A stretch of DNA of 36,133 nucleotides from Gemmatimonadota bacterium (GTDB taxonomy: Bacteria > Gemmatimonadota > Gemmatimonadetes > Gemmatimonadales > GWC2-71-9), in the NCBI GenBank assembly GCA_003221895.1, contig QHUJ01000125.1, positions 1 through 36,133 of the forward strand. Reading direction: 5' to 3'. Positions within the stretch are counted from its first letter, which is position 1; each line of letters starts with the position of its first letter. Made by a program: the position numbers and the translations under genes. Under the pieces are notes generated by a model that saw only the letters and a program-made list of their open reading frames with translations, searched no databases and was not told where the DNA came from. Of this stretch, positions 19,924 through 30,868 are shown piece after piece.

Positions 19924-21027
19924 CTAATGTTTCGGCGTCAGCGTCACAACTGACAGCACGGTCGATACCGCGATCAGGATGATGATGATCCACTCCAGGG
20001 TCTCCATCCGGCGCGTTGCCGCGCGGTCCGTCATCTTGCCGTAGATCCCGTCGATCGTCTGCAGCTTGCGCGCGATGCTCGCATCCCAATCGGCCAGGTG
20101 AAACCGCCGCGATGCGTGCGCGTACGCCCGCGAGAGAAACTGGTCGCCGACCAGCTTCAGCGCGTTGGTCACCTGCTCGAACAGAATCGCGGCGTCGAGC
20201 TCGAGGCGCGCCAGGCTGCGGAGATCGGGACCCACGGGCGCCATCCGCCACGGCCGGCGTGATCGACCCAGCAGCCCCTCGTACGCGCGCTCGAGCACAT
20301 CGTCCAGCTCATGATCCAGATAGCGCATTTCCAGCAGCTGGGTGTTGGCGAACTCGAGAATGTCGCGCACGTCATCGCCTTCGGGGTCGAACAGCATCGC
20401 GGCGTCCGTATCGATGATGGTGGCGTCATTCGGACCGAAGGAGAGCCGCGCCGCCGTCGCGTCCGCGATTTCCTGCTGTGACAAGGGATGGGGGGCGGCC
20501 CGCAGCAGCTGCGCCACCGTGAGTGCCTCAGTCGTCCACAGCATGGCGGCGTCGCACGGTTCGGTGAACGTCTCGATATGAAAGATCGAGTAGTCTTCGA
20601 CCAGGTCGGCGATGCGCGGACGGACGGCGGCGGCGCCCAGGTCGCCCAGCAGCTGCTCCACGTGGCGGCGCGAATCCTTGAGCAACCGCTCATTCCCCCA
20701 CAAGTCCTCGGCCAGGGCGGGCAGCCGCGTCAGCTCGCCAGCCAGCGGAATCGCATAGCTGACCGAGACTGCACCGAAGTCGTATAGCACGACTTCGACT
20801 CCCGGCATTGTTTGCCACCCGTCCCCCGTTTGTGGCTCGCCGCTACGGGGGACATGCACCGGGGCTGGCCGGTACTCAAAGGATGCCGGCGCGCGCCGCT
20901 TGTATTTGATCGTCTGACGCTCGACGCCTTCGAACAGGCGGCGCTGGGCGGCATCGAGATCGATCGCCTGGGCTACTTCGTAGGCGAACATCGGGAAACA
21001 TGTGCCCTTCGCAATGACGGGTCGCAT
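19924..21027 (-). CDS. Membrane-anchored protein resembling the DUF155/RMND1 family
   Basis: The 367-residue protein has no signal peptide. Around residues 80-110 it reads VEVVLYDFGAVSVSYAIPL, like the VxxFxYGxVVFW strand of DUF155 proteins. The middle is helical, with NTQLLEMRYLDHELDDVLERAYEGL. The C-terminus has SIARKLQTIDGIYGKMTDR followed by a single transmembrane helix (LEWIIIILIAVSTVLSVVTL). A C-terminal anchor after a helical region is the usual DUF155/RMD1/RMND1 architecture; the mitochondrial member is needed for translation, while bacterial roles are unknown. The start is only 26 bp from the divergent M14 gene and lacks a clear ribosome binding site, so a start further in is possible. 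Confidence 0.65.
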   Translation of the reverse strand: MRPVIAKGTCFPMFAYEVAQAIDLDAAQRRLFEGVERQTIKYKRRAPASFEYRPAPVHVPRSGEPQTGDGWQTMPGVEVVLYDFGAVSVSYAIPLAGELTRLPALAEDLWGNERLLKDSRRHVEQLLGDLGAAAVRPRIADLVEDYSIFHIETFTEPCDAAMLWTTEALTVAQLLRAAPHPLSQQEIADATAARLSFGPNDATIIDTDAAMLFDPEGDDVRDILEFANTQLLEMRYLDHELDDVLERAYEGLLGRSRRPWRMAPVGPDLRSLARLELDAAILFEQVTNALKLVGDQFLSRAYAHASRRFHLADWDASIARKLQTIDGIYGKMTDRAATRRMETLEWIIIILIAVSTVLSVVTLTPKH

Positions 21028-21053: not shown

Positions 21054-22442
21054 ATGTCGACTCTCCATGTCGCGATTACGGGACGGGACAAGCGCCACCT
21101 CGCAGCCCTCGGACCAAAGCTCCGGGTTGTGGTGGTGGGGTATCGTGAAGAGAAGCATCGCTTCGTCGTGGATGCGTATGTCCACGCTGACAAGGTCGCA
21201 TGGCTGAAGCGCCAAGGTTACGGCGTGGCGCGTCTGGAAGAGGTCGACGCGCACGATCGCGCTCGCCAGGCGGAAGGCCACGCCGCCGCCACCAGGCGAC
21301 TGAAGAAGGGACGCTACGGCGACGTCATCTGGGGCGGCGGCTACCTCACCGCCGATGAAGTCGAACAGGCAATGGTCCTCGGCGAACAGAACCACGGCGC
21401 GTATTTCGAGCGCATCGCGCTGCCGAATGTGACGTGGGAAAGACGCCGCTGTCACGCGTTCCGCATCGGCAAAGGGAACGGCCGGAGCCGACCTGCCGTC
21501 TGCTTCATCGGGGGCGTGCACGGACGCGAATGGGGCGGCCCCGACATCCTCATCTACTTCGCCGTGCGGCTGCTGCGCGCCTACCGGGACCGGGAAGGCT
21601 TCCGGCTCGGCAAGAAGCGCGTTTCGCCGGCGCTGGTCCGCCGCCTGGTGGAGACCATGGACATTGTGGTGCTGCCCCAGGTCAACCCCGACGGACGCGC
21701 CTTCAGCATGGACCGGCATCCCTTTTGGCGGAAGAACCGGCGGCCCGCGCCTCGCGGACAGGGATTCAGGTCCATCGGCGTGGACCTGAATCGCAACTTT
21801 CCCTTCTTGTGGCGCTTCGACCGGCACTTCGCCCAGGGCACAGTGGAGAGCACGCACAAGCCGGGCGACTACGAGACCTACGTCGGCCCCCGCCCGGCCT
21901 CCGAGCCGGAGACTCGCAACGTGATGTGGCTGCTCGACCGGTTTCCCAACATCCGCTACTACGTGGATCTGCACAGCTACGGCGAGACCATTCTCCACAG
22001 CTGGGGCAGCGATGACGACCAGTCGAAGGACCCCCGCATGAACTTTCGGAACACGACGTACGACGGAAAGCGGGGCCGCATCCTCGACGATGTGTATAGC
22101 GAATACATTCCGGCGACGGACAAGAACGATGCGGTGCAGATGGGTCGCCATATGGCAGCCGCGATTCGGCTGGTGCGGGGGCGCGAGTACGAAGTGAAGC
22201 AGTCGGTCGGCCTCTATCCCACGGCGGGGGCCTCAGACGACTACGCCTACAGCCGCCACTGGGTCGATCCGAAGAAGGGGAGGCTCATCGCCTTCACGAT
22301 CGAGTGGGGCCGCAGCCACGCGTCCACGCCGTTTCACCCGCCCTACCCCGAGATGCGCAAGGTCATGCGCGAGGTGAGCGCCGGCCTGCTGGCGCTGTGC
22401 CTGCGGGCGCTGGCGAAGCGCACCACGGGATCCAAGGCGTAA
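21054..22442 (+). CDS. M14 zinc carboxypeptidase
   Basis: This 462-residue enzyme would remove C-terminal residues from peptides. The zinc site is complete: His156 and Glu159 in GGVHGREWGG and His307 in YYVDLHSYGE. Substrate-binding Arg lies in GVDLNRNFPF and the catalytic Glu417 in IAFTIEWGRS. PQVNPDGRAFSMDRHPFWRKNRR is the usual block between ligands. The first 120 residues form a separate N-terminal domain (RVVVVGYREEKHRFVVDAYV) that resembles the propeptide-like region of some carboxypeptidases. No signal peptide is visible, which is unusual for the family and suggests a cytoplasmic role or non-classical export. CGGAG precedes the ATG. A terminator hairpin follows. Confidence 0.92.
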   Translation: MSTLHVAITGRDKRHLAALGPKLRVVVVGYREEKHRFVVDAYVHADKVAWLKRQGYGVARLEEVDAHDRARQAEGHAAATRRLKKGRYGDVIWGGGYLTADEVEQAMVLGEQNHGAYFERIALPNVTWERRRCHAFRIGKGNGRSRPAVCFIGGVHGREWGGPDILIYFAVRLLRAYRDREGFRLGKKRVSPALVRRLVETMDIVVLPQVNPDGRAFSMDRHPFWRKNRRPAPRGQGFRSIGVDLNRNFPFLWRFDRHFAQGTVESTHKPGDYETYVGPRPASEPETRNVMWLLDRFPNIRYYVDLHSYGETILHSWGSDDDQSKDPRMNFRNTTYDGKRGRILDDVYSEYIPATDKNDAVQMGRHMAAAIRLVRGREYEVKQSVGLYPTAGASDDYAYSRHWVDPKKGRLIAFTIEWGRSHASTPFHPPYPEMRKVMREVSAGLLALCLRALAKRTTGSKA

Positions 22443-22466
22443 ACGACACGGCGGGCCCAGCAAACG

Positions 22467-22500
22467 AAGCGCCCGGTGTCGACGTGACCCGGGCGCTTCC
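22467..22500. terminator. Hairpin terminator after the M14 gene
   Basis: GAAGCGCCCGG (22467-22477) and CCGGGCGCTTC (22490-22500) form an 11-bp perfect stem with a 12-nt loop. On the plus strand a T-rich pyrimidine tract follows at 22512-22536, as in an imperfect intrinsic terminator for the carboxypeptidase transcript. On the minus strand it lies 8 nt past the stop of the polylysine microgene and is followed only by GTTTGC, so it could also end that transcript. Confidence 0.7.
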
Positions 22501-22508
22501 TGCTTTCG

Positions 22509-22544
22509 CTACTTCTTTTTCTTTTTCTTCTTTTTCATCGCCAT
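22509..22544 (-). CDS. Possible polylysine micro-ORF (11 residues)
   Basis: On the minus strand ATG at 22544 reads MAMKKKKKKKK and stops with TAG. AGGAAGGAG (complement of 22552-22560) lies at ideal spacing, 7 nt before the ATG, which is better than many annotated genes here. TTGCCG and TACGTT about 16 nt apart further upstream could form a promoter, and a strong hairpin follows the stop. Together these look like a complete small transcription unit. Against it, the lysine codons are simply the complement of the T-rich tract behind the M14 terminator. A basic peptide of this size might bind nucleic acid, or the AAA/AAG run might stall ribosomes; both are guesses. Confidence 0.4.
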   Translation of the reverse strand: MAMKKKKKKKK

Positions 22545-22691
22545 GGGAGCACTCCTTCCTACGGGAAGTGCGGAGGCGCTTCGCTGTGAATCGCCCACGT
22601 TACAAGCAACGTACACACTCTCCGAGCGGCGGCAAGACCGTCAGAATCGGAAACTGCTTGACGACGGCGCCTGGAAGTGGAGAATAGTCCG

Positions 22692-24140
22692 ATGGCCACC
22701 ATCCGGATTTGGCGAGCACTGCTCGCTTCGTTCGTCCTCGCGACTCCCGGGCTGTCTGCTCAAAACGCCACGCTCGGAGGAAAGCGGGCGGTGGTGTACA
22801 CCACCGCCGACAGCACGAACCTCCGGCTGACGCCTTCCGATACCCTCACATTCCAGCAGTCCGCGCCCACCACCGAGGCCGAGATCTACGTGTTCGTCGA
22901 TCCGCGGCGCACGTTCCAAACGATGATCGGCATCGGCGGCGCGTTGACCGATGCCGCCGCGGAAACATTTGCCAAGATTCCGACGGAACGACAGGCACAG
23001 CTGCTCGACGCGTACTACAGTCCAGAGCGCGGCATAGGCTACACGCTCGCCCGGACGAACATCAACAGCTGCGATTTCTCGAGCGCGAGCTACACATATG
23101 TGACCGAAGGCGACAAAGATCTCAGCAGCTTCGACATCGCCCCCGATCTCAAGTACAAGATTCCGCTGATCAAGCGCGCGTTGGCGGCGAGCGGGAACAA
23201 GCTCAAGCTGTTCGCCAGTCCGTGGAGCCCGCCCGCCTATATGAAGGACAACAACGACATGCTCCACGGTGGCCATCTGCGACCGGAGTACCGCCAGGCG
23301 TGGGCGCTGTACTACACGAAATTCATCAAGAGCTACCGCCAGGCCGGCGTGCCGGTATGGGGAATCACGATCCAGAACGAGCCGATGGCGAAACAGACCT
23401 GGGAGTCGTGCATCTACCAACCCGAGGAGGAGCGGGACTTCCTCCGGGATCACCTCGGCCCCGTCATGGTCAAGGAGGGGCTCAAGGACGTCAACATCAT
23501 CGTCTGGGACCACAACCGCGATCTGATCGTGCAGCGCGCCCTGACGATTTTTGGGGATTCAGCCGCCGCCCGCTATGCCTGGGGCACCGGATTTCACTGG
23601 TACGAAGACTGGTCGGGCGGGACGCAGATGTACGAGAACGTGGCGCTCGTGAGCCGGCTGTTCCCGAACAAGCACCTGCTCTTTACCGAAGGCACGCCGG
23701 CGAATTTCGACTCCACCGCCTACGGACGGTGGAGCCTGGGCGAGGCGTACGGCCGCTCGATGATTCACGATTTCAATTCGGGCGCGGAGGGCTGGACGGA
23801 CTGGAACATCCTGCTCGATGAAAAGGGCGGTCCCAACCATGTCGGCAACTACTGCTTTGCACCGATCCATGCCGACACGCGCACCGGTCAGCTGATCTAC
23901 ACGAATTCGTACTATTACATCGGGCACTTCTCAAAATTCATCCGTCCGGGCGCCAAACGGATTGCCGTTGCGCCGAGTCGCAGCATGCTGCTCGTGACAG
24001 GGTTCAAGAACCCGGATGGCAGCGTCGCGGTGGTCGTGATGAATCCGACCGCGCGTGCCGGCGAGTACCACCTCAGCGTCGGTACAGCCGCGGTGACCGT
24101 GCGCTCGCCGGCACACTCGATTCAGACGGTGGTGTTCTAA
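22692..24140 (+). CDS. Glycoside hydrolase family 30 (glucosylceramidase/beta-1,6-glucanase-like), secreted
   Basis: I place the start at ATG 22692, with GGAG nine bases upstream and a signal peptide (LLASFVLATPGLSAQ); GTG 22677 is an in-frame alternative. The 482-residue protein is full length. The GH30 (beta/alpha)8 barrel begins at FQTMIGIGGALTDAAAE, with LARTNINSCDFS and FASPWSPPAYMKDNNDML. Glu230 in TIQNEP is the acid/base and Glu333 in LLFTEGTP the nucleophile. DFNSGAEGWTDWNILLD and the C-terminal beta-domain with VVVMNPTARAGEYHLSV complete the fold. Substrates in the family are beta-1,6-glucan, glucosylceramide or xylan; the INSCDFSSASYTY region fits the glucosylceramidase/glucanase branch. 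DUF2461 follows 10 nt later. Confidence 0.92.
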   Translation: MATIRIWRALLASFVLATPGLSAQNATLGGKRAVVYTTADSTNLRLTPSDTLTFQQSAPTTEAEIYVFVDPRRTFQTMIGIGGALTDAAAETFAKIPTERQAQLLDAYYSPERGIGYTLARTNINSCDFSSASYTYVTEGDKDLSSFDIAPDLKYKIPLIKRALAASGNKLKLFASPWSPPAYMKDNNDMLHGGHLRPEYRQAWALYYTKFIKSYRQAGVPVWGITIQNEPMAKQTWESCIYQPEEERDFLRDHLGPVMVKEGLKDVNIIVWDHNRDLIVQRALTIFGDSAAARYAWGTGFHWYEDWSGGTQMYENVALVSRLFPNKHLLFTEGTPANFDSTAYGRWSLGEAYGRSMIHDFNSGAEGWTDWNILLDEKGGPNHVGNYCFAPIHADTRTGQLIYTNSYYYIGHFSKFIRPGAKRIAVAPSRSMLLVTGFKNPDGSVAVVVMNPTARAGEYHLSVGTAAVTVRSPAHSIQTVVF

Positions 24141-29983: not shown

Positions 29984-30637
29984 TCACGGCCTCACAGTCA
30001 CGACGGCGGTGCTGCTGTGCCCTTCGCTGGTCGCTGTGATCGTCGCGGTGCCCGCCCCGATCGCGCGAACGAACCCCGTGGCGAGCACAGTCGCGATACC
30101 GGCGTCGCTCGAGGTCCAGTCGATCGCCCGCCCGAAGATCGCGGCGCCGGTCGCATCAGCCAGCGTCGCGCTGAGGGTCGTCGTATCGGCGAGGGCGAGG
30201 CTGACGTTGGCAGGCTTAACCGAGACCGCGTTTACCGGGACCGCCGTTGCCGTAACGGCGATGCTGGCGGTTGCGGTCGGCGTGCCGGTGACGGTGGTGA
30301 CGATGAGCTGATAGGTACCGGTCTGCGCGGGTGCAGTATACGTGATGTGCGGTACACCAGCGATGATGCCATTGTTGACGATCGTCCCACCGGTCGCGGA
30401 CCACGTCAGCGAACCCGGTGACGCGGGATCGCCGTGAGACGTCGTGACGACTAAGGTGAGAGGCGCCGCCTGGAAGGGCAGCAGTGTGACGCGCCCGGGG
30501 ATGATGTTGATGTGATCGATGCGATCCACGACGGGTCCGGCCTGGGTGAGCCCACAGCCCAGGACGAACGCCGCGGCGATGATCGCTCCAAGCTTTATCC
30601 GCGCGAGTCGACGCGACAGCTTGAACCTGAAGTTCAT
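29984..30637 (-). CDS. Big2 (bacterial Ig-like) lipoprotein under a c-di-GMP riboswitch
   Basis: The ATG at 30637 lies about 18 nt past the riboswitch terminator, behind a GGGGGAGGGGGG stretch; the upstream part of the frame is the riboswitch and not coding. The signal ends in FVLGC, so Cys28 should be lipidated. The 217-residue protein has a first Ig-like segment (about 40-130: NIIPGRVTLLPFQAAPLTLVV, TWSATGGTI) and a C-terminal Big2 domain (about 135-215: VSVKPANVSLALADTTTLSATL, AIDWTSSDAGIATVLATGFVRAIGAGTATITA). Such domains build surface or adhesion proteins. Control by c-di-GMP supports a role in attachment, as inference. Confidence 0.88.
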   Translation of the reverse strand: MNFRFKLSRRLARIKLGAIIAAAFVLGCGLTQAGPVVDRIDHINIIPGRVTLLPFQAAPLTLVVTTSHGDPASPGSLTWSATGGTIVNNGIIAGVPHITYTAPAQTGTYQLIVTTVTGTPTATASIAVTATAVPVNAVSVKPANVSLALADTTTLSATLADATGAAIFGRAIDWTSSDAGIATVLATGFVRAIGAGTATITATSEGHSSTAVVTVRP

Positions 30638-30654
30638 CGGTCCCCCCCTCCCCC

Positions 30655-30695
30655 AAAAACAAAAAGGCCGCCGGCGGGTTGAATCGCTGGCGGCC
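30655..30695 (-). terminator. Riboswitch-linked intrinsic terminator before the Big2 lipoprotein gene
   Basis: On the minus strand GGCCGCCAGCG (complement of 30685-30695) pairs with CGCCGGCGGCC (complement of 30666-30676) with one mismatch. TTTTTGTTTTT follows directly (30655-30665). It is the best intrinsic terminator in the window, yet it stands upstream of the gene it precedes. Its left arm shares bases with the likely P1 stem of the c-di-GMP aptamer, so ligand binding can decide whether it forms. Confidence 0.85.
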
Positions 30696-30777
30696 AGGCG
30701 AGCAAGGCGGTCATCCGCCGTAGCCCCGTGGCTCTGCGTCCCCGCCTTTCGACGGGTTTGCTCTGAGCAGCAGGCCG
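30691..30777 (-). ncRNA. Cyclic-di-GMP-I (GEMM) riboswitch aptamer
   Basis: Reading the minus strand, AGCAAACC is followed by stem P2 (CCCGTC/GGCGGG) closed by a GAAA tetraloop (complement of 30747-30750). Next come GGGGACGCAGAGCCACGG and GGGGCTACGGCGG-ATGA-CCGCC, which forms the second hairpin with the UA receptor side. These are the conserved elements of the GEMM-I RNA (consensus GCAAACC..GAAA..GGGACGCAAAGCC). One A of the CAAAG segment is G here. CGGCC (complement of 30773-30777) can pair with GGCCG (complement of 30691-30695) as the base of P1. The terminator and lipoprotein gene follow at once. Confidence 0.87.
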
Positions 30778-30868
30778 AAATTGGCGGAGGTGCAGTCAAT
30801 CCGGCGTGACCACCGTCACAAGCGTGCTGGGAAAGGTGTAATCTAGAGGCTCCTTCGACGCGATCCGA

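Follow-up and report, generated by a model that had tools for sequence, protein, structure and literature searches.

The bacterial histone H1-like proteins, such as Hc2 of Chlamydia (PF07382) and AlgP of Pseudomonas, are cationic Lys-rich chains of low complexity. Polyphosphate granules require the H1-like tail of AlgP for their spacing (PMC9239181). The window, which is the whole stretch of 36,133 nucleotides analysed here, contains a micro-ORF that would encode a chain of the same kind, but this chain consists of 11 residues instead of more than 100, and has neither repeats nor Ala/Pro. The closest systems in layout are the microgenes for H1-tail-like Lys/Ala peptides of the sister family f2, described below, which are of the same order and likewise consist of a Shine-Dalgarno, ATGGC, a stand-alone Lys-rich ORF, a stop and a hairpin. 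The f2 peptides differ from the window peptide in that Ala, Thr, Gly and Arg are mixed with Lys, that they are conserved across genera, and that a covarying leader precedes them, whereas the window ORF is nearly pure in Lys, unconserved and without the leader core. The leader type of f2 also precedes two SWIB proteins with a Lys-rich N-terminal tail (MAAKKKAAKKPAKK..), which, unlike the window ORF, carry a folded SWIB domain; no tailed SWIB protein is found in ten searched genomes of the genus of the window. The micro-ORF (11 aa) is shorter than the minimum of the profile search (20 residues), and a long f2 member, L161, matches PF07382 weakly (E 1e-6), its 29.4 bits staying under the cut-off of 40. 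The features of the locus are as follows.

21054..22442, plus strand: M14 zinc carboxypeptidase gene, convergent, lineage-specific (Pfam PF00246, E 4.5e-50)
22466..22499, no strand assigned: 11-bp perfect hairpin separating the two convergent stops, a candidate terminator for both directions that has no T-run next to it on either side (z −4.4/−4.2)
22509..22544, minus strand: micro-ORF MAMKKKKKKKK and stop (11 aa), the only Lys run of at least 4 in the window
22512..22538, plus strand: T-rich tract, complement of the Lys run
22545..22628, minus strand: leader region, which R2, the model of the f2 leader, matches full-length at background level, ending on the ATGGCG of the micro-ORF
22552..22560, minus strand: Shine-Dalgarno AGGAAGGAG, separated from the ATG by 7 nt
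22692..24140, plus strand: GH30 glycosidase gene, divergent (Pfam PF02055/PF17189)

The first-pass annotation described a Shine-Dalgarno, a 7-nt spacing, ATG, MAM with eight Lys, a stop and an 11-bp hairpin, and this description is confirmed from the minus strand. The spacer between AGGAAGGAG and the ATG is TGCTCCC (7 nt). The ORF starts with two ATGs in frame (ATG GCG ATG) and reads ATGGCGATG AAA AAG AAG AAA AAG AAA AAG AAG TAG, i.e. M-A-M-K8-stop. The hairpin begins 8-9 nt after the TAG, and its arms GAAGCGCCCGG (22499-22489) and CCGGGCGCTTC (22476-22466) are paired with each other. On the minus strand its fold gives a z of −4.4, none of 200 shuffles being as good, and no T-run follows it. 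A scan of the region 21500-23500 detects neither a sigma-70-like promoter on the minus strand nor a consensus terminator on either strand (0 sites). The minimum-energy fold holds the Shine-Dalgarno of the micro-ORF in a hairpin (GCACTTCC..GGAAGGAGTGC), but with a z of only −0.26.

The Lys run is the single run of at least four consecutive Lys codons in the 36-kb window when both strands are scanned, and runs of at least five are not obtained in 100 dinucleotide shuffles. It lies in DNA with a GC content of 63%. Its 24 nt contain five G, all at third codon positions, in an irregular mixture of AAA and AAG. The share of AAG is 5/8, and AAG accounts for 77% of Lys in the 19 window ORFs taken as genes (P(<=5/8) = 0.27). 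The third-position G pattern is as expected for Lys codons, and a simple repeat of 3 or 6 nt would also keep the G in phase.

The micro-ORF sits in the gap between the convergent M14 gene and the divergent GH30 gene. The Lys run had been linked to the M14 gene as the complement of the T-tract of its terminator. This link is weak, because the T-tract starts about 17 nt beyond the stem and the scan gives no terminator site. In an intrinsic terminator a T-run would directly follow the stem, and the reading of hairpin and T-tract as an M14 terminator is rejected. Among 61 genomes, three have a match to the M14 protein at E<=1e-20; two of these matches are partial (39-42% identity), so that the protein is full-length only in its own genome. 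At E<=1e-40 it is found in its own genome alone of 395. Of 41 genomes, 12 carry the GH30 gene, the genome of the window included. At ten of these GH30 loci, the genes that lie upstream of GH30 in the window are not found within about 1.5 kb beside GH30, and the intergenic DNA matches over 21 bases at most. A plasmid search gives the best M14 homologues of those found, which are full-length, about 47% identical and located on Paraburkholderia megaplasmids, and horizontal acquisition of this gene (21054-22442) is possible. No Lys-rich microORF is found near the M14 homologue at two of these megaplasmid loci, a 7-residue ORF (LKSSKRK) in a Streptomyces M14 locus is judged to be due to chance, and no source of the M14 gene is found in the viral contigs searched. 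Elsewhere in the window, a c-di-GMP-I riboswitch aptamer is detected at 30686-30772 on the minus strand (62.1 bits), near the start of the minus-strand ORF 29984-30799; it is the only match in a scan of the window with Rfam at gathering thresholds.

The micro-ORF is absent from all nine congeners and from the rest of the family. The 200 bases around it have no match over their length in 60 relatives, and two short matches of 27 and 22 bases (G046 and G031) look unrelated on reading. The pattern (AAR)7 with a stop occurs in 1 of 61 genomes, and a microORF of the type MA..KK..KK-stop in 1 of 102 family genomes, which in both cases is the genome of the window (G000). A collection of about 85,000 species was searched with the pattern GGAG-N4-10-ATG-N0-15-(AAR)7-TAR, which matches 42 loci. 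At 9 of these 42 the Lys run shares the frame of the ATG. Since 6 of the 16 spacings that the pattern allows are in frame, this share is not above expectation and indicates no database-wide excess of such genes, which speaks against more than chance; this control is crude, many out-of-frame matches looking like ordinary gene starts. Five of the in-frame hits are rejected: L045 and L062 read as ends of longer frames (open to the contig end and over 468 codons, respectively), L031 and L048 are contained in long ORFs that use a different frame, and in L044 the ATG is immediately followed by a stop. The other four, L028, L047, L053 and L064, are possible stand-alone polylysine microgenes with a Shine-Dalgarno (MAPK8, MAK7, MK7 and MAK7), each isolated; they belong to other phyla, two of them lying in contigs named archaeal.

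A looser microgene pattern, run on 395 genomes of the phylum, matches 12, the window's own included. Most of these matches belong to the beginning or the end of an ordinary gene or are out of frame, but three, all in one genus of f2, are MAAKKKAKKKAKKKK-type ORFs after near-identical leaders. A DNA search in that genus matches 17 of 18 genomes and gives the microgene at 16 loci (14-22 aa). A covariance model built from 14 of the leaders was searched against 390 genomes of the phylum, and it matches 71 places in 69 genomes, all in f2. All 71 places were inspected, and at each of them the leader ends directly on the start codon of a Lys-rich ORF; the ORF is 14-24 aa long at 39 of the 71 and 26-114 aa long at the remainder. 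Two of the places, L167:135-224 and L176:126-217, are those of the SWIB-domain proteins with the Lys-rich N-terminal tail; they are second leader copies in genomes (G247 and G143) that also hold the microgene. The model R2 was made with a stricter limit from 53 of 73 sources, which kept out nine matches that are antisense copies of true leaders or a weak opposite-strand match. Its matches in another family, f1 (G005, G006, G017 twice and G021), are judged false, as no Lys-rich ORF follows them, and so is an additional, weak match within f2, in G043.

The f2 leader is about 100 nt long, and its conserved core near CCACCGGGGG is present in nearly all 53 rows of the alignment (A3). The pairing is supported by covariation. 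In the 53 leaders 95.5% of the cells are paired and 183 double changes are counted, versus 50 in shuffles (0/500 as high), in an alignment that was fitted to the model and thereby favours the structure; slid structures score far lower. The Shine-Dalgarno hairpin has the least covariation: both partners change in only one of its five pairs. An outer helix that sequesters the start codon, which some folds of f2 leaders contain, is not general; in 26 of 47 leaders the longest helix exceeds the shuffled mean. In five groups of f2 ORFs of equal length, 30 codon alternatives are synonymous and 14 are not, although 22% synonymous would be expected, and 38 of 60 base changes fall at third positions. 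This codon analysis took 24 loci, the number of distinct sequences being smaller, and its two smallest groups (36- and 29-mers) lean towards non-synonymous alternatives (6 to 10). Rfam at E<=1, run on four loci of which three hold the leader, gives only matches below curated cut-offs, NCBIfam gives nothing for four short f2 members, and literature searches list no paper on the f2 leader or on Lys microgenes in Gemmatimonas. This structured RNA leader seems to be undescribed. It may regulate translation: the Shine-Dalgarno lies in a conserved hairpin that follows two covarying helical arms, and the opening or closing of this hairpin might depend on a ligand, on a protein or on the product itself.

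The window ORF is plausibly an orphan that encodes a free cationic tail peptide, or else a coincidence. The former reading is preferred with a probability of about 0.45. The Shine-Dalgarno, the ORF and the hairpin are present, and they suggest that the microgene may be transcribed, translated and functional. A short minus-strand transcript would start inside the M14-GH30 gap, the strong Shine-Dalgarno at 22560-22552 would direct translation into MAM and eight lysines, and the hairpin at 22499-22466 would close the transcript. The product would be a peptide with a charge of +8, a free tail of the histone H1 type that could neutralise DNA, RNA or polyphosphate. AlgP is a model for such tails. 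Gemmatimonas is described as polyphosphate-accumulating, so that polyphosphate would be a fair candidate target for this peptide. The microgene would probably be of recent origin, or have been acquired along with the adjoining M14 gene. The complete order from Shine-Dalgarno through ATG, (AAR)8 and stop to hairpin argues for this reading, as do the third-position G, the uniqueness of the Lys run in the window and of the microORF among the 102 family genomes, and the same-order precedent of the f2 leaders, which precede Lys-rich ORFs without exception. The tiny nucleic-acid-binding peptide proposed earlier is conceivable, since Lys-rich microgenes for 14-24 aa are under coding selection in the same order. 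Against the orphan microgene stand its lack of conservation, the lack of an in-frame database excess, of a sigma-70-like promoter on the minus strand and of a T-run after the hairpin, and a leader that is not unusually structured.

Coincidence is ranked nearly as likely. A low-complexity pyrimidine tract in the M14 3' region would then have a complement that happens to read ATG-Lys8-stop after the purine-rich AGGAAGGAG, and purine-rich tracts yield Shine-Dalgarno-like sites and Lys codons alike. The unconserved locus, the in-frame share of 9/42 and the minus strand without a detected promoter are consistent with this explanation, and a first-stage reading picks out striking runs. However, two in-frame ATGs, a good spacing, an immediate stop and a strong hairpin coincide, the Lys run is unique within a GC-rich stretch, and its G are confined to third positions.

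A wider scheme is improbable. According to it, the order would run free H1-like tails down to 11-24 residues from microgenes, f2 translation would be controlled by the undescribed leader that holds the Shine-Dalgarno in a hairpin and perhaps senses its own product or polyphosphate, and the window microgene would be the most reduced, leader-less member.

It is very unlikely that the window ORF is a divergent f2 leader-microgene member with a degenerated leader. It has the f2 traits of a stand-alone Lys-rich ORF from ATGGC and a hairpin soon after the stop (in the window no T-run adjoins this hairpin), R2 aligns over its full length, 1-105, and ends exactly on ATGGCG (10.5 bits, with E 0.0012 when 201 bases are searched), and the blocks CTCGGAG..GTGTA and GCGATTCAC look similar by eye. 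However, six other, unrelated matches of at least 10.5 bits are found in 95 kb of control DNA, and among 195 control ATGGC sites one other reaches 10.5 and one 9.6. When the leader is aligned to 45 f2 leaders, its mean score is no better than that of controls, as 83 of 1000 shuffles and 366 of 1000 genomic stretches attain it, and nhmmer gives the leader no score. The core hairpin loop near CCACCGGGGG is absent from 22545-22640 on the minus strand, and the fold of 22545..22628 is not unusually structured (z +0.64). Membership is thus disfavoured, and by analogy the window ORF may work like the f2 Lys/Ala microgenes, if it is translated.

The C-terminal end of a longer minus-strand ORF, giving a protein of about 35 aa with an octalysine tail, is an equally doubtful origin of the Lys run. 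The frame is open for 32 codons upstream of the ATG, with GTG codons (...VYVACNVGDSQRSASALPVGRSAPMAMK8), but the position of the strong Shine-Dalgarno suits the ATG at 22544, and relatives of the longer frame are not seen, its DNA being absent from the 60 relatives. A regulatory leader peptide, as suggested in the first-pass annotation, which would act by attenuation through slow Lys codons, can practically be discounted: in a reconstituted E. coli system ribosomes are slowed and shifted by Lys codons in succession (PMC9207662), but no co-directional gene follows the micro-ORF before the M14 gene is passed from end to end, the minus strand there being only M14 antisense and its next plausible long ORF lying at 19924-21027.

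The f2 leader finding is firmer and more important than the window microgene. The octalysine ORF, if translated, would be an extremely small, basic bacterial gene product, and a natural test of how ribosomes handle consecutive Lys codons. The f2 leader is tied to small H1-tail-like proteins at all 71 places, which makes the regulation and purpose of such H1-like tails in bacteria testable in cultivated relatives.
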